A stretch of 19,735 bases of DNA from an uncultured Clostridia bacterium (GTDB taxonomy: Bacteria > Bacillota > Clostridia > Christensenellales > UBA1242), in contig CALVUB010000005.1 in the NCBI GenBank assembly GCA_944363385.1, forward strand, positions 1 to 19,735, given 5' to 3'. The notes below the pieces were generated by a model. It saw only the letters and a program-made list of their open reading frames with translations, did no database searches and was not told where the DNA came from. Shown here in pieces: positions 34 to 18,131 of the stretch; position 1 is the first letter of the stretch, and each line of letters starts with the position of its first letter. The position numbers were made by a program, and so were the translations under genes.

Positions 34-1095
34 TTAATTTTTCTTATTTTTCAATTTTTCATAATCAAGTCCCATGGCTTCTTTGATTTTTTCAAGAATT
101 TTTTGAGCAGAATTTCTCGCTTTTTTGCCACCTTCAAACAGAATGTCATAAACTTTGTCGATATTTTCTTCAAGCTCTTTTCGCTTTGCCCTTATTGGAG
201 TGAGCAGCTGGTTGACGATATTGTTTAAGAAAAGTTTGACTTTTACATCGCCAAGTCCTCCCCGTTTGTAATGAGCTTTAAGTTGGTCTAAATTTTTGTA
301 TTCTGGCAAATATTTTTCGAAATGCTCATCTTTACAGAAGGCGTCCAAATATGCAAACACAATATTCCCTTCAATTTGTCCAGGGTCAGACACTTTGATA
401 TGGTTTGGGTCGGTGTAGGCGGACATGATTTTTTCTTTAACGGTCTTTTCGTCATCACAAAGATAGATTGCGTTGCCTGCCGATTTTGACATTTTTAGTT
501 TTCCATCAAGCCCAGGAAGGCGTGCGCAAATTTTATTTTCAGGCAATAACCCTTTGACTTCTCTAAAAACTTGCCCATAAGTGTTATTGAATGAGTGGGC
601 AATTTCCTTTGTTACTTCTATAACAGGCATTTGGTCTTCGCCAACAGGGATTATATTTGCATTGAAGGCCAAAATATCGGCAGCTTGAGAGACTGGATAG
701 TTTAAAAATCCGATAGGTAGTGACTTTTCAAAACCGCGTTGTTTTATTTCGTCTTTGATTGTTGGATTGCGTTGGAGGCGAGAAACAGAAACCAGGTTCA
801 TAAAATAGGCGGTGATTTCAAAAAGTTGTGGCACCTGTGATTGAATAAAAATAGTCACTTTGTTTGGGTCTATGCCTGCAGAGATATAGTCTATCGCCAC
901 TTGAATGATGTTGTTTTTGACTTTATCAACATTGTTTGCGTTGTCGGTCAGCGCTTGAGTGTCGGCAATCATTATATAATATTCGTCATAATCGTTTTTG
1001 TTTTGCAGGTCGATTCTGGTTTTAAGGCTTCCTACATAATGACCGAGGTGCAGATTTCCAGTTGGGCGGTCGCCTGTCAAAATAATGTTGTTCAT
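34..1095 (-). CDS. trpS: Tryptophanyl-tRNA synthetase
   Basis: Cytoplasmic class I aminoacyl-tRNA synthetase that charges tRNA-Trp with tryptophan using ATP. The 353-residue product has the HIGH-type signature GNLHLGH at residues 13-19, preceded by TGDRPT, and a perfect KMSKS loop at 201-205. It also carries a VGEDQMP segment at 151-157, in the place where TrpRS has its conserved GxDQ motif. The length is within the usual 330-350 range plus a short lysine-rich C-terminal tail. I chose the ATG at 1093-1095 because GGAG (1102-1105, minus strand) lies six bases upstream. An in-frame ATG 13 codons earlier falls inside the -10 box of the promoter and would add non-family residues. The gene is transcribed divergently from the giant surface-protein gene. 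No terminator is visible in the 33 bases downstream. Identity is seen directly from the motifs. Confidence 0.96.
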   Translation of the reverse strand: MNNIILTGDRPTGNLHLGHYVGSLKTRIDLQNKNDYDEYYIMIADTQALTDNANNVDKVKNNIIQVAIDYISAGIDPNKVTIFIQSQVPQLFEITAYFMNLVSVSRLQRNPTIKDEIKQRGFEKSLPIGFLNYPVSQAADILAFNANIIPVGEDQMPVIEVTKEIAHSFNNTYGQVFREVKGLLPENKICARLPGLDGKLKMSKSAGNAIYLCDDEKTVKEKIMSAYTDPNHIKVSDPGQIEGNIVFAYLDAFCKDEHFEKYLPEYKNLDQLKAHYKRGGLGDVKVKLFLNNIVNQLLTPIRAKRKELEENIDKVYDILFEGGKKARNSAQKILEKIKEAMGLDYEKLKNKKN

Positions 1096-1132
1096 AATTT
1101 TCTCCATAGTCAACAAAATTTTTTGCAATTTC

Positions 1133-1161
1133 ATTGTAGCTTTTTTTAGTTATCAAGTCAA
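1133..1161 (-). promoter_or_regulatory. trpS promoter (TTGACT-N17-TACAAT)
   Basis: On the minus strand, TTGACT (1156-1161) and TACAAT (1133-1138) are separated by exactly 17 bases, which closely matches the sigma-A consensus. Transcription should begin near 1126, giving a leader of about 30 bases with the GGAG ribosome site near its end. This leader is too short for a tryptophan T-box or attenuator. Confidence 0.75.
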
Positions 1162-1448: not shown

Positions 1449-1481
1449 AAACACAATAAGTTCAAAATGAAGGAGTTTGTT

Positions 1482-4400
1482 ATGTCAAAGAAAATATCAA
1501 GGGGACTAACTTTCTTAGCTTTAGCGATTTTGAGTTTGGGGGCAATTCTTTTTGTGCCTTCTCTTTTTAGTGGAACAAGGGCAGTGCAGGCCAGTGCTGA
1601 AGAAAAATTTGAAAGCACTGAGGAGAAGCCTTTGTGGGTCGAGAAAGAACTTAATGAGGCAAAGATTGAAGATGCTACATATTTTGGCTTGGATTGTAAG
1701 GTGATTGACTCGGCGGATGACCTTGCATATTTTTCTTATCAAGTGGGTCATGCAGTAGATAAATATGTGACCGCAAACATCTATCTTGCAGATGATATTG
1801 ACTTAAGTGCAGGGCTTTGGACACCTATTGGCACAGAAGAAAATCCTTTTCAAGGCAATTTCTTTGGCAATGGTCACTCTATTTCAAATATTGTCGTTGC
1901 TCAAGCTTCGCAATTCAGAGGCAATGCTGTCGGGCTGTTTGGCGCGGTCAAAAATGGTTCAATCGTGGACTTAACCGTTTCTGGTGGTTTTGCAGTTTCT
2001 TCAATGATTGATGAGACAAACAATGTTGGCACTCTTGTTGGCCACTTAGATGGCAGTGCAAAAGTTATCAACTGCTTTGATGAAACATATCAACCAACAA
2101 ATTCTACATACAGCACAATCGGAACTGCGAAAAGCGGAACATTTGTGATTTATCCATCTAGCAAAAATGGAAAAGAGGCTTATCTTACCACAGCGGAAGA
2201 GATGAGCGGTGCTATAACAATTGAAGATGACGCATCAACCAAAGGTTACACAGCTTTTTATAACACAGCAATTACTCCAGGCGTTTCAGACATTGAAGGC
2301 ACTGGCGTTGGATTTTATAAAGATGGCAAATATTTCTTCTCAGGCAACAAAACAGATTCTCAACAGGTGAGAGTTGCCTTTACTGACACAACTTACACAA
2401 GCACTCTTGCAGGTTTCTCTCATGTTTTATATGCTTCTTCTGCTCCAGTTTTAAGAGAAAATGCAACTGTTGGCGGTGTTTATGCACTTAGAACAGGTTA
2501 TCAAGCCACAATTGGCACTCCTTTAGTGGCTGAAAGTGGTGTGGTAAACTTAACTTGGGAATCAAAGACTGTTAATGTTACTTATGATTTTGACTACAGC
2601 ACAAGAGATGTAAGTTTTAATGTTGGCTATGACACTCCATGGGAAAATATTATTACTGATCGCCCTATTGAAAGACTTGGCTATCAAACCAGAACTCTCT
2701 ATTCAAATGCAGGCAAAACTGAAGAGTTAAACACTTCTGAGCAAAGCCAATTTTTGACTTACTATGCAGACAATGCTGACATTGTTTATATGACTTGGTC
2801 AGACGCAAAAACTTTGACAAGCAAGCTCTATTTTGCGGCTGCAAGCACTGAAGGCGGTGCATATACCAACGCAAAAGGGTCAGACGCCGTTTCTGCAGTT
2901 CAGGTTACAGGAGCAACCCATACAGCCATGTCAACAGGTGACGACTATGATCTTTCAGCTATTCCAGCAGGCGGTCCTATAACAGTCAATTTCACATTAA
3001 ACGATGGCTTTATCTTCCAAGGTGCGGGAGCAGGCTCGCATGTCACATCAAGATCAGATTGGACAATCACTACTGGCGTTTCAGATTTAAACGCTGGTGC
3101 TTATGCTTATTTCCCAAACAGCACAGGGGAAGGGATTAACTACAAAGTTGGTAATACAGGTGGTTATTATGACGCCTACACTCCAGTTGCGGTTAAGGTA
3201 GAGGCGAATGGAGCAAACTATACCATCACTTTCACAAACATTTTAGATAACGGCGGAGAGCTTGTGCTTGTCTTTGGCAAAGAGAGTCAGACTATAAACC
3301 TTAAAGGAACAGGGCTTGAATTTGCCACGGCTTCACTTTCAAACAACTCAAGCCAAACTATTCTCGATTGGGAAAAGAAAACTTTAACCACCAAAGCGGG
3401 TGAAAAATTCACTTTAACCGTGACTAGCACAAATGAAGATTACTATATTTTAACTTATAAAACTTCAGGCTTTAAATTTAATGAAGTTGGCTCAAACAGT
3501 ACAGTCGAGTTAAATGGAGAAACTTATTATAAAAACAGAATATTTAAAACAAACAGCTTTGAAGTTTCATCAACTGAGGAGTTAAGTATAACCCTTACCA
3601 TCAACAGACTGGTAACCTTTATCAAGGTGCAAATTGATTATGGCAAGGATATTGAACAAGACTACCAAGGAGTAGTGCCTGTTTACATTATTAGCTCAAA
3701 TAAGGGGGAACAATTAACTTATACTAGTCGTGTTTTTGAGGTTTCAAACGCAACAGAGACCACAATAAGATTGGGAGAACCAGAGCAAGCTTTCTTCTCT
3801 CTTGCAAGTGTTAGCGGAGTGGAGGGTGTTCAAATTCAAGACAACAGTTTTTCTTATATTTTTGAAAAGACCACAGCAAGCTCTGACGATCCTGCCTATA
3901 CAATCACAATCTATCCTGCGAAAATAGCCTATGATGTGAGCATTTCTTACACTCTTGACGGACAACCAATTGATGAAGAGGTTGCCAAGAGATTTGTAAC
4001 CTTCTCAGGCACAACCACAGATCTTGACTATGCTCTTGCAAGTGGCTATGAGTATAGTCTTGCACTGAAAACAGGTGCTCAAACTTGGCTTGACTATGGC
4101 GTTTCAGTAACACTTTCTAACGCAGGCTCAACTCAAGCAGGAGTGTCACAAGCATCATTAATTCAAGGTGCGACAAACAATGTTTTAAAAGGCACATTTG
4201 ACTCTGGAAACAACTTTGAGTTCACATACTTGCCAGGAACAATAGACTCTACAATCACAGTGGCTTTGACCAGCAAAACGATAAGTGTAAACTTTAAAGG
4301 ACTTGTGCTTAACAGTGGTGACAAAAAAACTCCTTTCACAACCACAAACTATGCAAGTCTTACATTAAGATATAGCGCAGACAGACTTGGCACTTTGACA

Positions 4401-7400
4401 ATTTCGCAAGGTGGATTTACAAGCGTGTCGATTGAAAACGGATACTATCTTGTTGGTTGGTATCTTTCAAACGGCACAGTTGTAAACACTTTCTCAAATG
4501 CAGAATTGCTTGCAAATGAAGAGTTTAAAACTCTTGTTGAGTCAAGCGCAAAAGGAAATAAACCGGCGCCAACTGTCACAATCAATCCGCTTGTTGAAAA
4601 GAGGGTTATAAACCTTTCTTACAGCTCGAATGGTGAAGATGACGAAGAGGGCGTTAGTGACGATGGCTCTTTAGCGCCAAGCTATAGCTATCGCGACCCA
4701 GCTGTTGCACTTAGCACCACAAAATATAAGAAAATTGGCTACTCTTTCAGTGGTTGGACTGCAACTGAAGGCACAACAAATGGCAATCAATATCAACTTG
4801 TTGGCGCAAACTGGAACGCCTTCTGGGAAAGAGGCTCAAGCACTTCAGTTTGGGAGAGTTTTGTCACCACAGCAGAAAGCGACCCCCGCGCTGAAAGAGG
4901 TGTTGTTTTGACTGCAAACTTTAACATTCTGACTTACAAGATTTCAGTTGACTCAGACAGAACTTTAAATATATCTTTAGGGCAATCTGTAACCTTTACA
5001 AAGGCAGGCAACAACACTTATGCAATCTACTCAGTTGGCTCAAACAATGTTAACGGCGCTACCAAAACAGGGCATGAAGTTACTGGTTACACCATAAAGG
5101 GCAAAGAAGGCTCAGAGCAGACAGGGCAAACAACAACCTTCACTCTTACTCTTGAAAACATACAAAACTACATTGCAGAGGACAACCTTTATTCGGTCAG
5201 CGCAAGCGATGGCGCCCACTTTGTCATCACCTCAGAGTTCAAGCCTTTGGTGCTTAAACTCTATATCACCAAAAGCCCTAACGAGTACTATACCGTTGAC
5301 CTTTCTGACGACATGCCAGAAGGTGCAGGCGGAACAGACAGCACAGGAACTTATGTCAACATAAGCTATGGGCAAAAGCCAAGCGAGGTTCTTTCTTATG
5401 TGAAAGTAACAAGACCAGGCTTTACACACACTGGCGGCTACACAATTGGTGGTGTCGACTTTGCAGTGGACACAGCATACACCCAAACCACAAACGCAAC
5501 TCTTATGCCAAAATTTGCCGTTAACGAAGAGGATGAGTTTTGGAGTAGTTATGTGAATGTTAAATATTCAGAAGATTTTGAAATTGAAAACAAACAAACT
5601 CACAACAAATATGAATTTTATCTCACTTTCCCAGGAGAGGTTGATGAAATTGAATTAATGAGTATCATTTTCAAACCTAACATAGGCAGTGGTCTTTCAA
5701 TTTCTTCAACGAAAAAAATTTACATCAAAGGCTACTCACAGGTTTTTGAGAACGTGGTTCCTCAAGATGGATCTCCAACAATCAAGATTGGCACTGTTTT
5801 CACTTTAATTTTAGAACTTTTGCGACAAGGGGTTATACAAGAAGCACTTTCAGATATCACGCTTGTCTGTGAATATACTATTGAAGATCATGTTACAAGC
5901 GAAACTATGACAAAAGTTGTTGAGACAAAACCTTTTAAAGTTTTGCAAAACGAAATGTTGGTAAGCATTAGTGATTCGGTCGACAGCTACTATACTGGCA
6001 CAGAAAACATTGTTTTGACCACTGAAGAAATTTCTTCAACCTTGACTACGACAATGAAATATGATGCTCATGGAAATCCATCGCCTGTTTCACAACAAAT
6101 GCCAATCGAAAGCGAAATGATGCAAGATTCAAAAATCATAGATGAGGCACAAACTTTTGCAGTTAGTGACACTTCTTACGATGCAAAAATTCTTTTTGAA
6201 AGTAACAGATTAACAGCATGGGGAGATATGGACGAAGAGGCTTTTAGGAAGGTTGTGTCATTCACTTATCCAGGTTGCGAGATTGAAATCAGTGATGGCG
6301 TTTATTACATTTACTTTACATGTGAAAGTGCTGTTGATGTTGTAAAATCTCCAGCGGTTATCAGATTTGAGTCCACTGGCGCAGCTTATGTCAGTGGCAT
6401 GGTGATGACCGTTGCTCAAAGCGAAAGCGGATCGTTCAATGTGCTTGACAATCCAAGCTATCCTTTCACCTATTCCTTTAAAGAAATAACTCTTGCAGAG
6501 AACTCTTTTGACAGTCTTCCTCAAACCTTTACTGGAACAGAAACAACAGCTGACCAAACGGTTTTCAACATTTCAGAACTTGTCATTCAAAAAAATGGTC
6601 AAGGCGACAATCTGCTGTCAAACTTTGATTGGGTGATTTCAACAGAGTCTTCTTTCACAGTGTATGACAGCTCAAACTTTACAACATATCGCTATCAGGC
6701 AAGATATTTCACAGCAAATGAAGACAGAACAGCTCTTACCGCCATGTCAAACACATGGAAAGACAACCATGTTCATAACTTTACCGTTTCAAACATAATG
6801 GTCAACGGCTCATCTTTTTCACCAAACAATGGCTACAGCCATATTAAAGACGGAAAAATCTTCTTTACAATTTATGGCAATGGCGAAAGCGAGCTTGTTA
6901 TTTCAGTTAACCCAGACACCGTTACAAGCCTTAGCATGGATATTACAGTCAATGCAAATGCAAGCGCAAATGTAAGTGGTCTTGTGCTTTACAACTGGCA
7001 AACAGACACAACAATTGACGAAAGTTTGTTTGGAAATGTTACAGCAGACCCTATGACAAAACTTGACTATAACACCAGCCAAGCCCAGACAACCTATGCT
7101 GTGTTTACCGATGTGACAAAAGTTTTGGTAGACTTCAACCTCAGCGGACTTGAAAACGAAACGCTTTATGTTGCAAGCGATGACCGCTTTCCAATTAACG
7201 ACCCAACAGACAGCGAAAAAGAACTTGCCTTTGACGGTTTTGTTTCAAGCGGAAACGGAGCGCAAATCACCGACAATGAAGGAAACAGCACAGTCGCATG
7301 CACCACAGCAGGCGGAAGCGCCACCTTCAAAGCAAAGTGGAGGCTTACAAATGTTAATATTGAGCTTGACGAAACAAAATCAGAGCTGACTATAACTACG

Positions 7401-10400
7401 ATAAGACAGAAAGCTGGTGTTGAAATTTATTTCAATGACCTACTTAACAATCTTTCAAAAAGGTTTATCTTTGGGAACGCAAGTTATGCTGACAAGATTA
7501 AGGTTGTAGCAACAAAAACAAGTGGAAAAGGCGCAGAAACGTCACCTTTAACATTAAATGTTTTCAATACTAATTATTTTGATTTGCCATATTACGAAAT
7601 GGTTGGCTCTATATCTGGCGGTCAACACTGTTATTTATCGCTTGACAACTTGGGAACATACAAACTTAAAGTAACTTATTCTTACAATGACGGCATTCAA
7701 ACAACAACCATCACAAAAGATTACGAATTTAGCATTTCTATGGTTATGGCTGAAATAAGAGTTGGAAACATTGCAGAGGCAAACAAAGATTTGGTTTTTG
7801 CAAACTCAGAATTCCAAGAAATCACTTTGCCTTGCACTTTGTATGTAACGCAAGATGACCTTACAAAGCCTTCAGAAATTGTGAGCGATCTTTCTCTTTC
7901 AGCTGATGAAATCAAAAAATATGTGGTGTTTAACGGAAGCTCTGACTTAAGCAGTATTAGTGACATGATGTATTTCGATGTTACCACACCACAAGGAGTG
8001 GACGGCAAGAGACTTGACAACTTCTACCGCGCAGGCGAATACATTTTTGAGGCAAAAGTGCCTGAGAAATTTGCAAAATATGTCAAAGCAGTCAACCCAG
8101 AAAATGAGGAAGAGGCTAAGTTCACCATTGCAAAATACCAGATTGACCTTAAAGATTATAACGACTCAATTAATATCGGAAAACCTTATTCAACTCCTGA
8201 CCCAGAGACTATTTCAAGCGAAATCACCATTTCTGCATTGCAAGATTCGCCTAAGGTTAAGGTTTACTTTACAAGAGAAGCAGGAGAAGCGGTTAACAAT
8301 GAGGTCGATACAGGTTATGCTCTTTCAGTTAGAGATGACCAAACTTACACAAACGGATTAAGTCAAGCCGATGCTCAAAATTATGTTATCAATGCAGAAG
8401 GCTTTAATGCTGAATTTGTGATTTTTGAAAATGACTCATCAGAGCTTCAAGTTAGCCTTGACAACGGTATTCACCACATTTACAATGGAAAAGTAGTTAC
8501 AAGCTTTAAAGTGGTTTATCAAAATTCACAATTCATTCTGCAGGCTTTAGCAAGTGATAATTCAGTTTTAGCCACAACGCCGATTAGCGTTAAAATGATG
8601 GTAGACGGCACAGGTTATGACCTTGTGGAAGGGGCTAAGGCTCAAACTGCAAAAGGAATAGCTATCTCGCTCACAAATGGAGCGGTTAAAGACCACAACG
8701 AAACTGGCTATGCCTTGTCGGTAACTTTCACTGGTGAGGGCTTCACAACAATCTCATTTGCTGAAAATGGGGACAACAACCTTTATATCGACAAAGCAAC
8801 TTTGTCTATTTCTTTAATCACAAAAGTATTTGACTATACAACAACCTTTATTGATAGCAATATTACCTACACAGGAGAGGTTTCTAGTGACGATGTTTCT
8901 CTTAGCGGTAACTTTGACAGCGAACATGGTGGCGTGAGAACGGTTTCGGGAGATATTGCAATTTCGGGAGCAGCTGCAAACAACTATCAAGTTGCATTTG
9001 CTGAAAATTGCACAATAACTATCACTCCAAAACAAGTTGGCGAGGCAACCGTTTCTATTACAACAAGCGAGATTGAGTATGGCAAAATCTCAAAAGATAT
9101 GGATGTTGATGAGCTTATCTCTCTGCTTGGCACAATTACCGTGAATATTGATAGTAAAAACTTATCTCTCTCTGACTACCTTTCAATCTCTGATTTTGCA
9201 ATTGACGGCGCAAGCTATTCAAGTTCAGACAGTCTTGTGGCAAACAGCACGGCTTACACTATCAACTTTGTGCTTGCTTCAACTGACTATGTTGGCATGA
9301 ATGGCACAGATGAGGCAGGAGCAAGTGGTCAAATCACTATCAAAGCAAAAGTGTTAGACCTTTCTGGCACGACCATTTCTAAGGGTTATGACGGAACAGC
9401 AAAACTGCCAGAGGGTATCAACTGGCAAGGGCTTGACATTGTCGGCATTGATGAAGTCTCTGTCGATATGGAACAATCTGCTTTTGAAAACAAAGGCAAA
9501 GGCTCTCATAAAGTGACTATCAAATTAACAGGCAAGGACAGCGCAAACTATAGCGTTACAGACAATGTTACAGGTCAAATCACAGCAATCACCATTACCC
9601 TTCAAGCTGATGTAACCGAAAACTTGCCAGAAGATGGCTTTGTTGACGGCAACCAAACCATAACAAATGGCAACCTTCAAATCAGAGTATCTTATCCATT
9701 TGATGAAGGCGCAAATGTTGACGAGATTATCTCTTCTTGGGCAAAACCTTCAAGAGTTGGCTACACAGTGACAGGTTACAGCTATAAAGAAACAAGTGGC
9801 ACATTCACTACAATCACAGCAGAAAATCTCGTGGCTTTCCTTGAAAAAATCGCAACTGACTCCGCAAATACTGACAAAACTGCAACAATCTATCCAAATT
9901 GGCAGATTGATTCAATCACCATCACAATCACTGGCGAAAATCTTGCTTCAATTTCAGCAGATCCTAGTGACAAAGTCAATATTGTTGACGGAAACTTTGA
10001 CGACAACAGTGCAAGCGTTACGGTAGACTACTATTCAAGCTTTAATCTTACTCTCACTACCAAAAATGGCTACAAAATCACTGGCGTAAGAATAGGCAAC
10101 AACACTCAAAGCGAAGGCTTGGGAGCAAACACCTTTACGGCAAACTTTACAAATCTTGGCTCAAGCACAAGCATTCAAGTTACAACCTCATCGATTGTTG
10201 TAACATTCAACTTTGACAAAAACATTCCAACAGTTGAGGGCGCTCTCATCACAGAAACCTCTTCAACTGGCTCAAGTGTAACTGTAAATTATGCTGACCT
10301 TAATGCTGAAACGCTGGACAGCATTCTTCCAAATATCACATTGACAGAAGGAACATTCACTCTTTCTGGTTGGAAAAATGGCGAAGCTGATTTGACTTTG

Positions 10401-13400
10401 ACTCAAGCAGTTAAAGGCTATATTGACAGTCTTTTCCCAACGCTAGACGCCGACAAGCCCGTAAATCTTACAGCTCAGTGGAAAGGCGTTGAATACACTA
10501 TCACCTTTGACGGCGGAGAACTTCAAATTGGCGAAGAGCTTGTTGAAGGAACAATTGAAGGAACAGCGACAATCAAAGCAACTTTTGGTCAAGCAATTGA
10601 AACCGCTTTCCCAACTGCTAAACTTGGCAACACAAATGGATATGTTTACAACTTCTTTGATGCTAAGTCTGACGGAAAGATGTATACTCAAGGCACAATT
10701 CTTTCTTCAATCAGAGCAGACGGACAGCTCACTCTCTATGCAGTTTGGTCAGAAGGCAGATATCAAGTAACCTTTAAAATTGACCCTCTCTTGACCGTTC
10801 GTTTTGACGGCAACAACTTAACCGATGGCTCAAAAGAGATTGTCCATGGCGAAAAGTGGGAGTTTGAGATTACAGCTGCTGCAGGCTATTCGTTCACAGT
10901 AGAGGTTAAAGACTTCTACGGACAACATTCTGCACTAACAGAAAGCCCATTCAGCATTTGGAATGTTTACAAAAATTCAACCATAGAATTTGTAGCCGTA
11001 GCAAATGACAACACTTTGACTCTTTCTTACAACTCTAAGCATATCAGCGTAACTGTTGACGACACAGCCTATACAAGCGCAGTTACAAGAAAGACAGGCA
11101 CAACAGCAACAGTTATTGCCACTGCCAGCGAAGGTTATGAATTTGATTCAAATTCTGCAGTTCTTTCAGGAAGCGGAACAATTTCAGGGCTTAGCTTAAG
11201 CGAAAACAACAAAGTTCTCACCTTCACATGGAAAGACTTTACTGATGACGGCACAATCACCATTACAGAATTGCGAGCAAAGGTTACACTTTCGTGGGGA
11301 GCAATTTCAAACTATGCAAAAGATATTTCAATTGGCGGAGAAAGCCAAACTCTTGATAACGGAAGCTTTATAACCCGTGCTGGAGAAGAACTTGACATTG
11401 AAATCACACTGAAATATGGCTTTAAGAATGCAAAATTGACAAGTGATAATGCAACCATTTCAAACGAGAAGAATGCAGGCTTAAATGCTGAAGATGTGGT
11501 TGTTTATACTGCGACAATATCAGGCTTTACTAAAGACTTTAAAATCATTTTGTCGGCAGAGGTAAGAACATTTACTGTCACAGTTAGTGCCAGTGGTATA
11601 AGCCCAACAGAGGGAGAGCATACTGTTACAGTTACTCCAAGTGGCGAAAACAACCTTGTGTTTGGCTCTTCTGTAACTTTAAGCGCAAGCCCTGCAGATC
11701 CAAGCTATCGCTTTATCGGTTGGTATCATGACGAAGAGCTAGTTAGCGAAGAGACTGAGCTTGATATTACAGCGTCTGAAGAGAACAAAGCTTTGCTTGA
11801 AAGCGGAAATCTTAACTTTGAAGCTAAATTTGACTATAACACTGTTGATGTCACCTTCAATTCTGGCGCGCATGGAAGCATGAGTGTCAAAATTAATGAA
11901 GAAGAACCTTTTGCAGTTGGCGCAGGCTCAATGCTCGAGCGCACAATATTTGTTGGCGATCGCATAACCTTCACCTTCCAGCCTGACAAAGGTTATGAAA
12001 TTGACATGTTCTATGCCGATAGTGAAGATAACAACTTAACAGATGGCATTAAAGAGGGCGTTTATACTATAGATTCAGTTGTCGCAAACAGCTACACTTC
12101 TTACACAATCAGCTACAAGGCAAGTGAAGTTTATGTGGACATTTCAGTTTCAGTCAGAATCCACTTTGTCGACTATCCAAACAACAACTTGGGCGGAAAC
12201 ATTTGGCTTGTGGATGCAAGCGGAACAAAACTTGAGGATGAAAATTATCTCCCTCCAAGCGAAGGCGACAAAGTCGTTGGAAGCAGATATAAAGTGCTTA
12301 CTTACACCGACCAAGTGTTCTATCTCTATCCAGAAGCTAAAGCAGGTTACTCCTTCTCATTTAGCGCTCAAACAAATGCCACTATTGACGCAATTTCACT
12401 AAGCGATGGCAGAACGATTTACCGCATCTCAAATGCAACAGACGGTTCAAGTCTTGTTGGGGTGTTTACCGCAGAGGATGTGCAAGTTGATGTTATGTTT
12501 GTAAGCGAACAAAAAGCAACAGATCAAGAAACAACAACCCTTACTCCTGCTTCTGCTGGTAGAATTCAAATTACTGATAGTAAAGGATTTTATAGCGAAA
12601 TTGGAAATGAACAAGGAAAACTGTCTATTTCTGCCGTTACAAGCACAGACCTTACTCTAACTGTCTATACCAATTTCTATTTCACACTTGCTGTTAAAGA
12701 TGAAGAAAGCAGTGAGATTATTGCCTACATTGATGGAGAACAGGAAGGCTTTAGCTACACACTAGGAAAGGCTATCAAGCTTTCTGATGAAGAGACCAAG
12801 AGAATGGGCTTTACCTATTCTTCAACGCTCACTCTTACAAATATCAATTCTGATATCACAGTAAAGATTTTGGTAGAGCCACAAGAATTCAAAGTAAAAT
12901 TATATGTCAATGAAAATGATGAAACTATCTATGCGTCAGAGCCAATTGTGATTGACGGAGTGCTCTATGGCGAGGTACTTGATCTTACAAATCTGACTGA
13001 CGAAGAAAAAGAAAGAATAACAAATGCCACAGAAGACAGTGAATATTTCTTAGGTTACTACACAAAACAACTTGGAGCAGGCGAAAAGTATATTGATGAA
13101 AATCTTATAGCAATTAAACCTTGGGAAGAAAAACCATATAAGCTTAACGGTCAAGAGTATGTCGTTGCAGACAACTATGACCCAGAGACTCACACCTTCA
13201 CACTTTATGCAGGTTGGGCTTATAAAAAGGCGATTGTTTCAGTTGACTTTATCCCACCTGAGTTAAAAGAAGTGGGAGACTATTCAATTTCAGACATTAT
13301 CACAAATATCAACCAGACAGTTCCATGGATCAACCCTGACAATATTTGGATTGGTGAGTTTAAGGTGACCAACTCGCTTAACCTTAGTCTTTCAGCTTTT

Positions 13401-14933
13401 GAGTTTGAAGGATATGAATTTGCTTATTGGTCGGTTACCAGCGGAGAACAAACTGTTCAGTATACTTCTAAAAACCTTACTCTCAGCAATATGGACATAG
13501 GAGAATATGCAATTCAAGCAGTGTATCTGCCTACTTTCTCAATAACCATTCAAAGCGATAGCCAAGAAGACGTGTCACTGATTGGTGAGGTATACATTAC
13601 GCAAGACGGTCAGCGTGTTACAACAACTGGTTATGATTCAACCAAAGAGGTGGTTCTTGTAGCAGAAGAAAAACCAGGATATTCTTTCCAATACTGGATT
13701 AATGCCAATGGAGAAATTTACTATGCAAGCGAAGTGAGCGAAGGCAGATGGGAATTCAGCCTTGGACCTCAATCAAAACCAATCTCGCTCTCTGCCGTGT
13801 TTAAAGGTGACGAGGTCGGCCTTGTCTTTGACCTTTCAGATTTTGCTTATGGACAAATCATTAGCGCAAAGATTGGAGAGCAACAAATATCTGATTTTAG
13901 TGTTCAGCATGATGTTACAATAGGAGAAAAAATTGAGCTTCAGGTGGAAATTAACACAGGTTATGGAGTGAAATTTGCAGGACCAGCATTCAATTATGAT
14001 CCAGCTCTAAACACTTACTCTTACATTGCCAAAGCGCAAGACCTTGTGGACGGAAAAATCATAATAAAACCTGTTTCAACTCAACTAGAAATATCTTTCA
14101 AATTTGAATTCAAAGTGGGCGGAGAAGACAAAATTGATGACGCGACCATAACAGGTTCAACAAGATTTACCTACACGCTCAACAATGAAATCTCAGCAAA
14201 CACGCCTGTGACAGATGGAATGATTATTGAAGAAAATCTTCTTTTTGGCGGAACGGCAACTTTAACAATTGTGCCAAGTCTTAATTACACAGTTGGAAAT
14301 ATTTTGATTTATTCTAGCGATTCTAATGTTGAAGATATAACCCACATGCTTAATAATGGTATCATCAATATTTCAAATGCTATATTGTCAGAGCATTTTG
14401 CTGAAAACGCGCCATACACAATTGTTATCAACTATGTAAGAATGATGTGGAACGATGAGGCTTACAGAGCATCAGACTTGCAAGGCGAAGGAACTCAATC
14501 AAACCCATACATTATCTCAACCCCTGCAGAAATGGGCTTTGTAGCTTGGGCTGTCAACAACGGAGAGGTCAATGATAACGATGTTGCTTATGCAGAATGC
14601 TATTATAAATTAACGGCAAATCTTGACTTCAATGGAAAATTCTGGCAACCTATCGGAACTCATGATAATCCATTTAATGGAACAATGGATCTTGGAGAAC
14701 ATAGCATAAGCAATGTTAACCTTGCTGAAAACTTTACAAATCCAAATCCAACTTATAATAAACTATTTTGGGTGCTTGGTGACAAAGCAGTCATCATACA
14801 AGCAAACCATGTTCTCGCCATTGTTCTTGGCATTGTTGGTGGACTTCTGCTTTTAGCAATAATCATAATTGTAACCTTTGTGATTATTCGCAAGAAAAAG
14901 AAGAAAAAATATAACGAACTTGCAAATGGCTAA
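1482..14933 (+). CDS. Giant secreted, membrane-anchored InlB/MBG/GLUG-repeat surface protein (4483 aa)
   Basis: Putative cell-surface protein, probably an adhesin or surface-layer filament; its ligand is unknown. A signal peptide (residues 1-39) has a KK..R start, a hydrophobic core and an ASA cleavage site. Residues about 60-200 resemble a GLUG-type beta-helix module. InlB/Listeria-Bacteroides-like modules recur, with GY-F-GW/YW signatures near 1086, 3409, 3977 and 4066. MBG/YDG-like modules lie around 2215-2710, including a YDGT motif near 2635. A second GLUG-type half module lies at about 4331-4430. One transmembrane helix (4444-4469) is followed by RKKKKKK and a short tail. I see no LPXTG-type signal and no enzyme motif. 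Cysteine is scarce. The start is the ATG at 1482, six bases after AAGGAG (1470-1475); an in-frame ATG at 1467 contains that Shine-Dalgarno site. The gene is monocistronic, with its own promoter and terminator. By eye it is richer in G+C than its neighbours. Repeat-family names are from memory of their patterns. Confidence 0.9.
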   Translation: MSKKISRGLTFLALAILSLGAILFVPSLFSGTRAVQASAEEKFESTEEKPLWVEKELNEAKIEDATYFGLDCKVIDSADDLAYFSYQVGHAVDKYVTANIYLADDIDLSAGLWTPIGTEENPFQGNFFGNGHSISNIVVAQASQFRGNAVGLFGAVKNGSIVDLTVSGGFAVSSMIDETNNVGTLVGHLDGSAKVINCFDETYQPTNSTYSTIGTAKSGTFVIYPSSKNGKEAYLTTAEEMSGAITIEDDASTKGYTAFYNTAITPGVSDIEGTGVGFYKDGKYFFSGNKTDSQQVRVAFTDTTYTSTLAGFSHVLYASSAPVLRENATVGGVYALRTGYQATIGTPLVAESGVVNLTWESKTVNVTYDFDYSTRDVSFNVGYDTPWENIITDRPIERLGYQTRTLYSNAGKTEELNTSEQSQFLTYYADNADIVYMTWSDAKTLTSKLYFAAASTEGGAYTNAKGSDAVSAVQVTGATHTAMSTGDDYDLSAIPAGGPITVNFTLNDGFIFQGAGAGSHVTSRSDWTITTGVSDLNAGAYAYFPNSTGEGINYKVGNTGGYYDAYTPVAVKVEANGANYTITFTNILDNGGELVLVFGKESQTINLKGTGLEFATASLSNNSSQTILDWEKKTLTTKAGEKFTLTVTSTNEDYYILTYKTSGFKFNEVGSNSTVELNGETYYKNRIFKTNSFEVSSTEELSITLTINRLVTFIKVQIDYGKDIEQDYQGVVPVYIISSNKGEQLTYTSRVFEVSNATETTIRLGEPEQAFFSLASVSGVEGVQIQDNSFSYIFEKTTASSDDPAYTITIYPAKIAYDVSISYTLDGQPIDEEVAKRFVTFSGTTTDLDYALASGYEYSLALKTGAQTWLDYGVSVTLSNAGSTQAGVSQASLIQGATNNVLKGTFDSGNNFEFTYLPGTIDSTITVALTSKTISVNFKGLVLNSGDKKTPFTTTNYASLTLRYSADRLGTLTISQGGFTSVSIENGYYLVGWYLSNGTVVNTFSNAELLANEEFKTLVESSAKGNKPAPTVTINPLVEKRVINLSYSSNGEDDEEGVSDDGSLAPSYSYRDPAVALSTTKYKKIGYSFSGWTATEGTTNGNQYQLVGANWNAFWERGSSTSVWESFVTTAESDPRAERGVVLTANFNILTYKISVDSDRTLNISLGQSVTFTKAGNNTYAIYSVGSNNVNGATKTGHEVTGYTIKGKEGSEQTGQTTTFTLTLENIQNYIAEDNLYSVSASDGAHFVITSEFKPLVLKLYITKSPNEYYTVDLSDDMPEGAGGTDSTGTYVNISYGQKPSEVLSYVKVTRPGFTHTGGYTIGGVDFAVDTAYTQTTNATLMPKFAVNEEDEFWSSYVNVKYSEDFEIENKQTHNKYEFYLTFPGEVDEIELMSIIFKPNIGSGLSISSTKKIYIKGYSQVFENVVPQDGSPTIKIGTVFTLILELLRQGVIQEALSDITLVCEYTIEDHVTSETMTKVVETKPFKVLQNEMLVSISDSVDSYYTGTENIVLTTEEISSTLTTTMKYDAHGNPSPVSQQMPIESEMMQDSKIIDEAQTFAVSDTSYDAKILFESNRLTAWGDMDEEAFRKVVSFTYPGCEIEISDGVYYIYFTCESAVDVVKSPAVIRFESTGAAYVSGMVMTVAQSESGSFNVLDNPSYPFTYSFKEITLAENSFDSLPQTFTGTETTADQTVFNISELVIQKNGQGDNLLSNFDWVISTESSFTVYDSSNFTTYRYQARYFTANEDRTALTAMSNTWKDNHVHNFTVSNIMVNGSSFSPNNGYSHIKDGKIFFTIYGNGESELVISVNPDTVTSLSMDITVNANASANVSGLVLYNWQTDTTIDESLFGNVTADPMTKLDYNTSQAQTTYAVFTDVTKVLVDFNLSGLENETLYVASDDRFPINDPTDSEKELAFDGFVSSGNGAQITDNEGNSTVACTTAGGSATFKAKWRLTNVNIELDETKSELTITTIRQKAGVEIYFNDLLNNLSKRFIFGNASYADKIKVVATKTSGKGAETSPLTLNVFNTNYFDLPYYEMVGSISGGQHCYLSLDNLGTYKLKVTYSYNDGIQTTTITKDYEFSISMVMAEIRVGNIAEANKDLVFANSEFQEITLPCTLYVTQDDLTKPSEIVSDLSLSADEIKKYVVFNGSSDLSSISDMMYFDVTTPQGVDGKRLDNFYRAGEYIFEAKVPEKFAKYVKAVNPENEEEAKFTIAKYQIDLKDYNDSINIGKPYSTPDPETISSEITISALQDSPKVKVYFTREAGEAVNNEVDTGYALSVRDDQTYTNGLSQADAQNYVINAEGFNAEFVIFENDSSELQVSLDNGIHHIYNGKVVTSFKVVYQNSQFILQALASDNSVLATTPISVKMMVDGTGYDLVEGAKAQTAKGIAISLTNGAVKDHNETGYALSVTFTGEGFTTISFAENGDNNLYIDKATLSISLITKVFDYTTTFIDSNITYTGEVSSDDVSLSGNFDSEHGGVRTVSGDIAISGAAANNYQVAFAENCTITITPKQVGEATVSITTSEIEYGKISKDMDVDELISLLGTITVNIDSKNLSLSDYLSISDFAIDGASYSSSDSLVANSTAYTINFVLASTDYVGMNGTDEAGASGQITIKAKVLDLSGTTISKGYDGTAKLPEGINWQGLDIVGIDEVSVDMEQSAFENKGKGSHKVTIKLTGKDSANYSVTDNVTGQITAITITLQADVTENLPEDGFVDGNQTITNGNLQIRVSYPFDEGANVDEIISSWAKPSRVGYTVTGYSYKETSGTFTTITAENLVAFLEKIATDSANTDKTATIYPNWQIDSITITITGENLASISADPSDKVNIVDGNFDDNSASVTVDYYSSFNLTLTTKNGYKITGVRIGNNTQSEGLGANTFTANFTNLGSSTSIQVTTSSIVVTFNFDKNIPTVEGALITETSSTGSSVTVNYADLNAETLDSILPNITLTEGTFTLSGWKNGEADLTLTQAVKGYIDSLFPTLDADKPVNLTAQWKGVEYTITFDGGELQIGEELVEGTIEGTATIKATFGQAIETAFPTAKLGNTNGYVYNFFDAKSDGKMYTQGTILSSIRADGQLTLYAVWSEGRYQVTFKIDPLLTVRFDGNNLTDGSKEIVHGEKWEFEITAAAGYSFTVEVKDFYGQHSALTESPFSIWNVYKNSTIEFVAVANDNTLTLSYNSKHISVTVDDTAYTSAVTRKTGTTATVIATASEGYEFDSNSAVLSGSGTISGLSLSENNKVLTFTWKDFTDDGTITITELRAKVTLSWGAISNYAKDISIGGESQTLDNGSFITRAGEELDIEITLKYGFKNAKLTSDNATISNEKNAGLNAEDVVVYTATISGFTKDFKIILSAEVRTFTVTVSASGISPTEGEHTVTVTPSGENNLVFGSSVTLSASPADPSYRFIGWYHDEELVSEETELDITASEENKALLESGNLNFEAKFDYNTVDVTFNSGAHGSMSVKINEEEPFAVGAGSMLERTIFVGDRITFTFQPDKGYEIDMFYADSEDNNLTDGIKEGVYTIDSVVANSYTSYTISYKASEVYVDISVSVRIHFVDYPNNNLGGNIWLVDASGTKLEDENYLPPSEGDKVVGSRYKVLTYTDQVFYLYPEAKAGYSFSFSAQTNATIDAISLSDGRTIYRISNATDGSSLVGVFTAEDVQVDVMFVSEQKATDQETTTLTPASAGRIQITDSKGFYSEIGNEQGKLSISAVTSTDLTLTVYTNFYFTLAVKDEESSEIIAYIDGEQEGFSYTLGKAIKLSDEETKRMGFTYSSTLTLTNINSDITVKILVEPQEFKVKLYVNENDETIYASEPIVIDGVLYGEVLDLTNLTDEEKERITNATEDSEYFLGYYTKQLGAGEKYIDENLIAIKPWEEKPYKLNGQEYVVADNYDPETHTFTLYAGWAYKKAIVSVDFIPPELKEVGDYSISDIITNINQTVPWINPDNIWIGEFKVTNSLNLSLSAFEFEGYEFAYWSVTSGEQTVQYTSKNLTLSNMDIGEYAIQAVYLPTFSITIQSDSQEDVSLIGEVYITQDGQRVTTTGYDSTKEVVLVAEEKPGYSFQYWINANGEIYYASEVSEGRWEFSLGPQSKPISLSAVFKGDEVGLVFDLSDFAYGQIISAKIGEQQISDFSVQHDVTIGEKIELQVEINTGYGVKFAGPAFNYDPALNTYSYIAKAQDLVDGKIIIKPVSTQLEISFKFEFKVGGEDKIDDATITGSTRFTYTLNNEISANTPVTDGMIIEENLLFGGTATLTIVPSLNYTVGNILIYSSDSNVEDITHMLNNGIINISNAILSEHFAENAPYTIVINYVRMMWNDEAYRASDLQGEGTQSNPYIISTPAEMGFVAWAVNNGEVNDNDVAYAECYYKLTANLDFNGKFWQPIGTHDNPFNGTMDLGEHSISNVNLAENFTNPNPTYNKLFWVLGDKAVIIQANHVLAIVLGIVGGLLLLAIIIIVTFVIIRKKKKKKYNELANG
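1797..2090 (+). other. N-terminal GLUG-type beta-helix-like module (domain of the giant protein)
   Basis: Residues about 106-203 read DLSAGLWTPIG, NPFQGNFFGNGHSISN, then VGLFGAVKNGSIVDLTV and VGTLVGHLDGSAKVINC. The alternation of a 'nGhsIsn' turn with 'vGLFG...gsI.nltv' strands is characteristic of GLUG repeats, which form right-handed beta-helix rungs in many adhesins and peptidases. Only two to three rungs are present before the sequence changes to InlB-like modules. Confidence 0.65.
8110..9600 (+). other. MBG/YDG-like module block (domain region of the giant protein)
   Basis: Residues about 2210-2706 contain several units resembling MBG and YDG surface-protein domains. One begins at the KYQIDLKDYNDSI segment near 2215. 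A second has NITYTGEVSSDDVSL and ends in NNYQVAF...ITITPKQV (about 2451-2520). A third has SKGYDGTAKLPEG, then KGSHKVTIKLTGKDSANY (about 2632-2695). The 'ttYnG/YDGt ... v.l.G...NY.v' pattern is typical of these stalk-forming beta-sandwich repeats. Unit boundaries are approximate. Confidence 0.55.
9667..13840 (+). other. C-terminal InlB-like and divergent InlB-like repeat region (domain region of the giant protein)
   Basis: Residues about 2729-4119 repeat a pattern of a beta-strand, a 'GY.f.GW' or 'GY.f.YW' turn, and a closing 'v.A.W' or 'l.A.F' strand. Examples are LTAQWKGVEYTITFDGG, LYAVWSEGRYQVTF, YRFIGWYHDEE near 3409, GYEFAYWSV near 3977 and GYSFQYWINANGE near 4066. These match the Listeria-Bacteroides (Flg_new) and divergent InlB B-repeat patterns, which form short beta-grasp-like modules in surface stalks. 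The copies are highly diverged; I see no near-identical tandem units. Confidence 0.6.
14473..14760 (+). other. C-terminal GLUG-type half module before the membrane anchor (domain of the giant protein)
   Basis: Residues about 4331-4430 include GEGTQSNPYIISTPAEM, FWQPIGTHDNPFNGTMD and GEHSISNVNL. They repeat the N-terminal module segment (WTPIG, ENPFQGNFFGNGHSISN) almost position for position. The following KLFWVLGDKAVI lies where the first GLFG strand would be, and the chain then enters the transmembrane helix. The module therefore looks truncated by the anchor. Confidence 0.6.
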
Positions 14934-15400: not shown

Positions 15401-15817
15401 ATGAACAAAGTTATGTTAATTGGCAATCTCACAAGAGATCCAGAACTTACAACAACAAACAGTGGCGTTTCAGTTTGCAGATTTTCACTTGCTGTGCAAA
15501 GAAGATTTGGCAATTCTGACAATGGTCCACAGGCAGATTTCTTCAACATTGTTGTTTGGAGAGGTCTTGGCGAAAACTGTCATAAATTTTTAAAGAAAGG
15601 TTCAAAATGCGCTGTCATGGGAAGACTTCAAAACTCTTCTTATGAGGCAAGCGATGGCACTAAGAGATACACAACTGATATCATTGCTGATGATGTAGAA
15701 TTTTTGGGAAGCAAACCGTCAGAGGGCGGAGAAAACTCTGCACCTGCACCTTCAAAATCATCAAGCAAAGAAGCGGTCGAGCTTGAACCTATTGATGATG
15801 ACAGTTTGCCATTTTAA
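15401..15817 (+). CDS. ssb: Single-stranded DNA-binding protein
   Basis: Homotetrameric protein that coats single-stranded DNA in replication, recombination and repair. The 138-residue product has the N-terminal MNKVMLIGNLTRDPEL opening of the SSB OB fold (about residues 1-105), including DFFNIVVWR and the GRLQNSSYEASDGTKRY segment. A flexible Ser/Ala/Pro/Glu-rich linker follows, and the protein ends in the acidic tip DDDSLPF, the docking peptide for SSB partner proteins. The start ATG follows AAGGAG (15388-15393) at seven bases. Its place between rpsF and rpsR is the conserved Firmicutes order, so it should be co-transcribed with them. Confidence 0.97.
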   Translation: MNKVMLIGNLTRDPELTTTNSGVSVCRFSLAVQRRFGNSDNGPQADFFNIVVWRGLGENCHKFLKKGSKCAVMGRLQNSSYEASDGTKRYTTDIIADDVEFLGSKPSEGGENSAPAPSKSSSKEAVELEPIDDDSLPF

Positions 15818-15836: not shown

Positions 15837-16109
15837 ATGAGCGAACAAGTTAAAACTGAAGTTAAAGAAGAAAAACCAGTCGTAAAGAAATTCCGCAAAC
15901 CTTCAAAGAAAAAAGTTTGTGCTTTCTGTGTGGCTGGCGAAAAAAATATTGACTATAAAGATATTGCAAAAATCAGAAAATATATCACTGAAAAAGGTAA
16001 AATTTTGCCAAGACGCCAAACTGGTGTTTGTGCTCGTCACCAAAGAGAACTTGCACTGGCAATCAAAAGGGCACGCAATATAGCGCTTCTTCCTTATGTG
16101 GGCGACTAA
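15837..16109 (+). CDS. rpsR: 30S ribosomal protein S18 (zinc-binding type)
   Basis: Small-subunit protein that pairs with S6 on the platform of the 30S subunit. The 90-residue product has the family core NIDYKD (37-42), GKILPRR (54-60), [13 protein letters not shown] (75-87) and a charged N-terminal extension. Cys28, Cys31, Cys65 and His68 form a C-x2-C...C-x2-H set expected to bind zinc, as in the C+ form of S18 found in Clostridia and others. A good ribosome site (AAAAGGAG) precedes the ATG. It lies 19 bases after ssb and 17 bases before rpmE, in the same operon. Confidence 0.97.
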
Positions 16110-16445: not shown

Positions 16446-18131
16446 GTGAAAAATTTTGTTTTCCCATTCAATAATGGCGTTGCATTTGTAAAAGATGAAA
16501 AATATTCTCTTGCCTTTATTGACAGTGATGGGCAGAAAAAAGTTTGCTCGGGCAAAGTTAAGGCTATTAAAGGCTGGAATGTGTTTTTTTGGCGAGGCCT
16601 TTTATATTTTTTTGTGGGAATAGTTTTGTATATTAAATTGCTTTTAGTGGAGGACAAAAATAATGATAGACCAAAAGATGAACAAAACAAAAGTTATGCA
16701 AAAGCAAAAAACATAACTTATTTTTCAAACTATCTTTTGCTTTTTGCTTTTGTTTTTCTTGCTTTTTTGTTTGGTTTTATTGTGCTGGGTTTTGTAGCCA
16801 ATTTTGTTTCAGACAAAATTGTAGACGAGCAAGATTTTTATCTTCACAGTTTTATTGTGGCTCTTTTAAGAACGGCTTTTATCTATATTTCTTTTCTTGC
16901 GCTTCGATTTTGCCCTTTTATGCAAAGTTTTTTACGCTTCAATTTGGCAGGACAAATCATCCTTGATGGTCAAACGTTCAGAAAAAGACCTCCTTTAAAT
17001 TTCTTGAATTTTGTTGTTATCGTTTGTTTATTTTCCACTTTTGTGATATCCTTAATTAGCATAAATGTGTCTTTTGTTGCCAATTTTTTTATCAACTTAG
17101 CGCTCTTTTTGTTGCTGATATGTATAAGTTATGAAATTCTGTTTCTTTTAGCAGGTTGCAAAAGCAGGTTTATCAGAGATTTATGTTTTATCACCACATT
17201 TTTGGTTGAACTTAAACCAAATACAACACAACTTGAGGTTTCAAATATGGCAAAAATCGAACTGGAAAATGGTTTTCAAAATTCTTATGGCGAAAGCGAA
17301 ATCCCGCTTTCTAGCGTTTTTGCACAGATAGAAACAAAACTTAAAAAAGCTGAGAAATATGAAAAAAGCGATGCCGATTGGATTGTGGCGAATGTGCTTA
17401 ATATTGGTCGCGGACAAATCAGACTGGTTAAAAGTTTGACTAAAGACCAAGAAAGAGAAATCTTATCAATTGCAAATAGAAGAGCAAAAGGCGAGCCTCT
17501 CTCAAGCATTTTTGGTTATGTTGATTTTTATGGCAACAAAATTTTGGTAAACAAAAAAGTTCTCTCTCCTAGAATGGAAACCGAACTTTTGACGGATGAG
17601 GTTATTAAAAAAATAAAAAAAGAAAAACTAGGCTCTGTGCTTGACCTTTGCACAGGCTCTGGAGCTATTGCAATTGCAATCAAGAAAAATTGTCAGATTG
17701 AAGTCACTGCAAGCGATATCTCTAAGTCAGCGCTTGCTGTTGCCATGCAAAATGCAAAGCAAAATGATGCCAAAATCAACTTTGCGCAATCTGACCTTTT
17801 TAAAGCTTTCAAAAAGAGCAAAAAATTTGATCTTATTGTGTCAAATCCGCCTTATATCAAAAGTTCTGAGATTGAAAAACTTGAAAGGGAAGTCAAAGAT
17901 TATGACCCCAAATTGGCGCTTGATGGTGGCGAAGACGGCTATCAGTTTTATCGAGAAATTGTCAAACAAGCTCCAAATTTTTTAAATAAAAAAGGCTACC
18001 TTTTCTTTGAGGTTGGCTTAGGACAGGCAAAGACAGTTGCAAAGCTGATGAAAGAAGGCAATTTTGTAGACATTAAAGTGCAAAATGATTATAATAAAAT
18101 TGAAAGGATTGTTTATGGAAGAATTGATTGA
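16446..18131 (+). CDS. prmC: DUF1385 (YqhQ-like) membrane domain fused to PrmC, release factor glutamine methyltransferase
   Basis: A 561-residue fusion. Residues 1-275 resemble DUF1385/YqhQ: an FFWRGL segment near 47-52, hydrophobic membrane segments at about 52-68, 94-122, 134-155, 186-208 and 210-237, then ELKPNTTQLEV where YqhQ has its EPTDDQVEV-like end. The usual family HGAEHK motif and N-terminal GGQAVxEG motif are not recognisable, so this half is degenerate. Residues about 285-561 are a complete PrmC: N-terminal helical domain, SPRMETELL (374-382), S-adenosylmethionine loop LDLCTGSGAIAIAI (399-412) and catalytic NPPY (467-470). PrmC methylates the GGQ glutamine of RF1/RF2. The start is a GTG without a clear Shine-Dalgarno site and is uncertain. 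The two domains are usually separate neighbouring genes. The gene overlaps prfA by 17 bases. The PrmC half is certain, the DUF1385 half likely. Confidence 0.88.
   Translation: MKNFVFPFNNGVAFVKDEKYSLAFIDSDGQKKVCSGKVKAIKGWNVFFWRGLLYFFVGIVLYIKLLLVEDKNNDRPKDEQNKSYAKAKNITYFSNYLLLFAFVFLAFLFGFIVLGFVANFVSDKIVDEQDFYLHSFIVALLRTAFIYISFLALRFCPFMQSFLRFNLAGQIILDGQTFRKRPPLNFLNFVVIVCLFSTFVISLISINVSFVANFFINLALFLLLICISYEILFLLAGCKSRFIRDLCFITTFLVELKPNTTQLEVSNMAKIELENGFQNSYGESEIPLSSVFAQIETKLKKAEKYEKSDADWIVANVLNIGRGQIRLVKSLTKDQEREILSIANRRAKGEPLSSIFGYVDFYGNKILVNKKVLSPRMETELLTDEVIKKIKKEKLGSVLDLCTGSGAIAIAIKKNCQIEVTASDISKSALAVAMQNAKQNDAKINFAQSDLFKAFKKSKKFDLIVSNPPYIKSSEIEKLEREVKDYDPKLALDGGEDGYQFYREIVKQAPNFLNKKGYLFFEVGLGQAKTVAKLMKEGNFVDIKVQNDYNKIERIVYGRID

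Follow-up and report, generated by a model that had tools for sequence, protein, structure and literature searches.

The window (the whole stretch of DNA analysed, 19,735 bases) is the entire contig of a 764 kb assembly that is 73% complete, and 68% of it is taken up by a giant surface-protein gene (1482..14933, + strand) encoding a product of 4,483 aa, 489 kDa and pI 4.4. The open frame spans 1467–14933 (+). It yields 4,488 aa if read from the first in-frame ATG (1467) and 4,483 aa if read from the one at 1482, which is the preferable start since it is where close homologues begin (with MSKK or MSLK). Among the listed frames of at least 80 aa, the longest that competes by overlapping the gene encodes 127 aa. 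The protein is acidic and contains 10 cysteines. The first-pass annotation had described one open frame of 13.4 kb, which is borne out as 4,483 residues from the conserved ATG, and had raised the concern of an assembly chimera; since 29 other protein clusters of the same size cover the first 1,000 residues at 98–100%, the long frame is not such a chimera. The length of the protein is 4,428–4,496 residues in 30 clusters, the window's own included.

Upstream, trpS (34..1134, −; TIGR00233, 2.5e-76) is a divergent neighbour that is often retained across the genus. The downstream housekeeping genes are ssb (15401–15817, +), rpsR (15837–16109, +), prmC with an extra N-terminus (16446–18131, +) and prfA (18085–19200, +). 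The window's PrmC has about 290 additional N-terminal residues, with a weak DUF1385 match (E 0.002, below the cut-off), and long PrmC forms are also found in the flanks of neighbours (family F12).

Ends, Modules and Predicted Fold

Hydropathy exceeds 1.6 (19-residue window) at the two ends of the giant protein only, at window starts 5–14 and 4435–4456. The N-terminus is signal-peptide-like in sequence and hydropathy (residues 1–40; 1482..1601, +), and a transmembrane helix is predicted at residues ~4443–4469 (14808..14888, +) from hydropathy and from the helix that closes the C-terminal structure model. The C-terminus is K/R-rich and ends in a short basic tail, RKKKKKKYNELANG (14889..14930, +), and ELAN-like endings recur in related subclades. 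An earlier description of these ends as a signal peptide and one C-terminal transmembrane helix with a lysine tail is consistent with the signal-like start and hydrophobic helix found here by hydropathy and sequence. Across 41 sequences, of which 37 include the C-terminus, the final 160 residues contain no LPxTG. Export would proceed via the N-terminal signal, placing the N-terminus outside and leaving the C-terminus in the membrane via the helix and basic tail.

The Pfam profile for the divergent InlB B-repeat domain (PF18998) matches the whole protein at E 7e-10 (39.2 bits; cut-off 23.6) in two stretches, the better of which covers residues 3383–3438 (11628..11795, +), and is present in all nine homologues scanned. 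PF09479 stays below its cut-off in the giant protein (13 bits vs 27). Two YDG domains (PF18657) were found at 8811..8996 (+; 30.3 bits) and 9345..9566 (+; 32.4 bits), both above the curated cut-off of 25; these surfaced in an own-genome search with PF18657, and the whole-protein hmmscan listed none. The InlB-like and MBG/YDG-like modules proposed in the first-pass annotation are thereby recovered. Its third family, GLUG, is not: of the 32 genomic matches to Pfam Glug (PF07581) at E ≤ 1, none falls in the giant frame, and the parts called GLUG-like are read here as an 'FWxPIGTxxNPFxGxF' module that lies near both ends. Pfam detects no leucine-rich repeat in the giant protein.

The end module is about 85–100 residues long. 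Its N-terminal copy occupies residues 75–157 (1704..1952, +), where a profile of the C-terminal copies matches at 2e-15, and its C-terminal copy occupies residues 4333–4434 (14478..14783, +), immediately before the membrane helix. When windows of about 100 residues, taken every 50 from an alignment of nine homologues, were compared with each other by hhalign, one strong pair was found (residues 71–157 vs 4341–4433, 97–98%), the next scoring 59 and 54%. A BLASTP self-comparison of the giant protein yields no match off the diagonal at E 0.01. Because internal self-matches are almost absent, the chain resembles a series of modules that have diverged strongly and not a copy-number array. All 30 full-length orthologues and all 30 database homologues, two sets that overlap by two proteins, have an N-proximal copy of the end module, located in the first 690 residues, and 14 of the 30 full-length orthologues have a third copy; the profile was built from C-terminal modules, which makes C-terminal hits a matter of construction and N-proximal hits independent. 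Smaller frames (about 300–2,200 aa) in many congeners also match this module, which is apparently widespread among the surface proteins of the genus.

Tandem β domains followed by a closing helix make up the model of the C-terminal 1,200 residues (mean pLDDT 83). For the N-terminus the model is poor, with a mean pLDDT of 57.7 and values mostly below 50 over residues 104–357. The bacterial structures nearest to the C-terminal model are Gram-positive pilins and adhesins, at TM-scores of just 0.09–0.12 on the model. The modelled fold supports the view of the giant protein as a long, predicted membrane-anchored surface chain of β modules. An earlier proposal of a very long extended surface fibre stands as far as this anchored chain is concerned; the extended shaft itself is conjectural, and would be of the order of 100–200 nm if β domains of about 90 residues stack. 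A search for function by homology returned none for the giant protein.

Distribution and Constraint within the Genus

The final 1,833 residues of the giant protein find a match 221 residues long or longer in 43 of 48 congeneric genomes. In 32 genomes from other families of the order, matches reach at most 155 residues, nearly all on the end module. The listed records with matches are uncultured Clostridia or Firmicutes assemblies, one of them labelled Christensenella (80 of 86 loci kept), and many lower-ranking listed loci are short module matches in other bacteria. The 30 full-length orthologues range from 4,309 to 6,612 aa, with 21 above 6,000; 11 stretches with incomplete orthologues were excluded from the length and end-module counts. 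Judged by this distribution, the giant protein is the product of a genus-core gene.

The position of the gene is also retained. trpS lies at most two ORFs upstream in 26 of the 33 genomes whose upstream flank was read (15 divergent, as in the window, and 11 codirectional), in five further genomes the last upstream ORF belongs to a family taken by eye for gltX, and two (G026 and G011) differ in their upstream neighbour. The first-pass annotation had regarded a location between core translation genes as unusual and had suggested a search for homologues and synteny; that search identifies the location as the usual site of a genus-core gene. The five congeners without a long match fall into different cases. 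In G048, an N-terminal piece adjoins trpS at the contig edge, and in G013 the contig stops just past trpS. In G032 (98% complete), trpS is present with no giant gene adjoining, and in G012 and G023 only short module hits and no giant gene were found, which together indicate that the giant gene is not indispensable. On the 3′ side, contigs of six genomes (G002, G009, G011, G016, G021 and G033) end ~70–500 bases past the gene, as if a repeat or an rRNA operon followed.

Other large frames occur in these genomes. A congener (G046, L237–L239, contig C2:17524–55926, −) encodes a 12,801-aa frame whose start is signal-like and which also has a hydrophobic stretch and a lysine tail. Seven PF09479 stretches, seven PF18998 stretches and one MucBP lie in a 4,999-aa piece of it; a profile search did not find the end module in this frame. 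The window's own genome has a 3,183-aa frame on another contig (C8, L240:2319–12765) that starts like a lipoprotein and in which Pfam gives no hit at E 0.01. It is followed by a 289-aa frame that has a hydrophobic stretch at its C-terminus and directly precedes a gene resembling uppP by eye; in another subclade, the giant gene precedes a gene similar to this uppP-like gene.

Purifying selection acts on the giant gene in the three pairs compared: pairwise dN/dS is 0.28 (G000/G028), 0.14 (G035/G036) and 0.20 (G010/G038), and all 250-codon windows are below 0.45, values that are rough because synonymous divergence is high (dS 0.7–1.4). Between G000 and G028, protein identity is 95% for trpS vs 67% for the giant protein. 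G035 and G036, which belong to the long lineage, both encode 6,138 residues and align with 10 gap columns over that length; their first ~1,250 residues change faster (69–76% identity vs 81–91% after). In this pair, the sole long-lineage pair compared closely, there are no sharply bordered blocks of the kind described below, and the mosaic is therefore claimed for the 4.4-kaa subclade only.

Alleles in the Middle of the Chain

An alignment of 32 homologues was used, from which P0031 was excluded as short and P0034 as long. Twenty-five homologues were grouped by their backbone (residues 2,750–4,480) into group 1 (P0001–P0005), group 2 (P0006–P0024) and P0025. Backbone identity between groups 1 and 2 is 72–74% in the pairs listed, and these two groups and P0025 probably correspond to species-level groups. 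The five members of group 1, the nearest database homologues, have 98–100% identity from about residue 3,600 onward (the last five 200-column bins), drop to 34–39% in certain bins, and change partners from bin to bin. When the chain is divided into 45 hundred-residue bins, pairs from one group that are less than 60% identical are confined to bins 601–800, 1301–1600 and 1901–2600. Such pairs number up to 6 of 10 in group 1 and up to 89 of 171 in group 2 for bins 1301–1600, and up to 6 of 10 and 114 of 171, respectively, for bins 1901–2600.

Three variable blocks are delimited in this way. Block A (residues ~1345–1619; 5514..6338, +) has five types among the 25 close homologues, block B1 (residues ~1901–2200; 7182..8081, +) has two, and block B2 (residues ~2219–2600, with sub-borders near 2437 and 2560; 8136..9281, +) has four, as defined by clustering at 80% identity over residues 1351–1600, 1901–2200 and 2210–2600, respectively. 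Blocks A and B are not the sole variable places, given bins 601–800 in group 2: this weaker variable region (window 3282–3881; P0001 residues 601–800), in which 16 of 171 pairs are below 60% in 601–700 and 4 of 171 in 701–800, is possibly a fourth slot.

The borders and combinations of the blocks are seen in individual pairs. P0001 and P0005 are alike to ~1,345, unlike to ~1,619 and then alike again; P0001 and P0002 differ at ~2,219–2,437 in the region read, and P0003 additionally differs at ~2,440–2,560 and 2,640–2,680. Sixteen of the 40 possible A × B1 × B2 combinations occur among the 25 homologues, and two A types with two B2 types form all four combinations within group 1 and likewise within group 2. 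Types also cross between groups whose backbones are 72–74% identical: block A of P0004 and P0005 is 94–95% identical to that of P0011, and block B2 is 97% identical between P0004 and P0015 and 95% between P0003 and P0023. Quick trees (LG+G4) of blocks A and B2 reject a group 1 clade (AU p 4e-66 and 2e-41, respectively), and control regions 300–700 and 3000–3400 recover group 1 at 99–100. The B1 tree keeps group 1 together at 99, nested among group 2 sequences. As judged from these alignments and trees, the comparisons show the middle of the giant protein to be a mosaic of sharply bordered alleles in many combinations.

In one pair, G028 (= P0022) and L143 (close to P0025), the DNA spanning a shared block was compared. 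In three 100-codon windows (G028 residues 2112–2412), dS is 0.07, 0.00 and 0.04, vs 0.44–2.30 in the remaining 23 of 26 windows. In 30-codon steps, DNA identity is 0.93–1.00 (mean 0.98) from 2142 to ~2412, 0.89–0.94 in the flanking steps and 0.89–0.99 in a second island at ~2473–2560; the other printed steps between 1961 and 2744 are at 0.58–0.81. A tract of ~0.8 kb at ~98% DNA identity, which maps to the equivalent of ~2080–2444 at block B2, thus lies inside genes that are ~75% identical overall. Elsewhere, the same two genomes have DNA identities of 81% (trpS), 75 and 79% (prmC–prfA) and 90% (the ssb–rpsR stretch). P0025 comprises five member sequences, one on a 117 kb contig, and has the same block as L143, to which it is 93–100% identical on either side; the block therefore did not arise from the L143 contig alone. 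The tract appears best explained by recent recombination between species.

Explanations and Known Systems

The window's frame is probably an allele of a genus-core gene for a predicted membrane-anchored β-chain, the mid-segment alleles of which are shared across strains and species and recombined to vary shaft display. The segments of the mid-section would be alternative alleles circulating among strains and species, most likely via recombination, and cells may exchange the blocks by homologous recombination in the conserved flanks. A search for a second copy of the block region found none in G028 (98% complete) or in G000 (73% complete, so that a silent cassette could be missing), and from these two genomes we infer exchange between cells. 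Diversifying pressure, whether from phage, host antibody or a changed binding partner, may act on the blocks in particular, with base and frame kept; recombination would then vary what the shaft, assumed to be exposed at the blocks, displays. A fuller version, in which a fixed-length giant fibre with copies of one module close to its two ends and three or more cassette slots in mid-shaft draws on an allele pool shared between species for combinatorial surface recognition, is put forward tentatively, as somewhat doubtful in that complete form.

A mechanical main job, as a cell-to-cell bridge, sheath element or gliding leg, in which recombination varies the middle as a by-product with no role in recognition, would suit a protein whose length is so closely kept (4,428–4,496 residues in the 30 clusters and 6,138 in G035 and G036), which has the same module near both ends and which most congeners retain despite genomes of 0.7–1.5 Mb. 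It is nevertheless unlikely, as adhesins and pilins are the bacterial structures that come closest in fold, and it gives no reason for several kept alleles. Assembly or binning chimeras, in which metagenome assembly put the blocks of one strain on the backbone of another, deserve attention because the giant-bearing records listed are uncultured, most of them marked as MAGs, and the G028 and L143 contigs, being named in one style, probably come from one project; such an origin is very improbable, given that the 117 kb contig of P0025 is distinct from the 15.9 kb contig of L143, that shared-block identity between group 1 and group 2 or P0025 tops out at 97% and not 100%, and that several types recur across many clusters of different sources. 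Least probable of all is a plain adhesin stalk whose blocks are loosely constrained, faster-drifting domains with no exchange, which fits the low conservation of the blocks at distance (30–45% at 1401–1600 and 2001–2600 vs P0025, P0026, P0028 and P0030) and their somewhat higher G000/G028 dN/dS (0.35–0.43) but accounts neither for block A types at 20–40% identity beside 90–100% flanks with borders a few residues wide nor for types common to different groups above backbone identity, and is largely contradicted by the near-zero dS in one tract.

Giant surface proteins are often set aside, since the important part is not evident. Here, natural variation marks domain-sized slots, a few of which differ sharply among close relatives and recur across species, with thousands of surrounding residues alike, and the function of the giant protein thereby becomes testable (for example, whether alleles bind different things). 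Exchange by recombination, the preferred reading, would operate inside a single gene between species with genomes of ~1 Mb, for which a gene of 13–20 kb is a large cost, and swapped segments would let related bacteria alter their display to viruses, hosts or partners. If the fuller, combinatorial version is true, the 5 × 2 × 4 types could present phages, antibodies of the host or partner cells with up to 40 surface identities.

Both the kinds of domain seen here and mosaicism as a principle of surface proteins are already known. Searches of the open-access literature listed no paper on the giant protein, and to that extent the combination of a fixed-length giant core gene, a module present near both ends and internal cassettes that species share is new.

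The nearest bacterial structures are tandem Ig/CnaB pilins and adhesins of Gram-positive bacteria (PitA, 7vcn; T-antigen, 8f70; the Cna B region, 1d2p; SpaC, 6m48; TIE, 6fwv), from which the giant protein differs in being far longer, in having a transmembrane helix and basic tail in place of LPxTG and in having no recognised ligand domain. With InlB B-repeat or List-Bact proteins (PF18998, PF09479) it shares its two PF18998 stretches at a whole-protein score above the cut-off; however, PF18998 leaves most of the chain uncovered, and the leucine-rich repeat is missing from the Pfam results. Its two YDG domains relate it to MBG/YDG surface proteins (PF18657, PF18676), and a 6,456-aa homologue has PF18676, although YDG is a small share of the chain. 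Giant type-I-secreted adhesins (RTX/Bap, such as SiiE) have no signal peptide at the N-terminus and possess long repeats that are nearly identical, whereas the giant protein has a signal-like N-terminus, a C-terminal transmembrane helix and no near-identical repeats. Mosaic surface antigens such as pneumococcal PspA and the neisserial transferrin-binding proteins are spread by recombination. The giant protein resembles these in its sharp allelic blocks common beyond the species and in a genealogy of blocks A and B2 that conflicts with that of the flanks, with low dS in the one pair compared; it differs from them in that its variable part is internal to a fixed-length chain of 4.4 kaa, in uncultured Clostridia.
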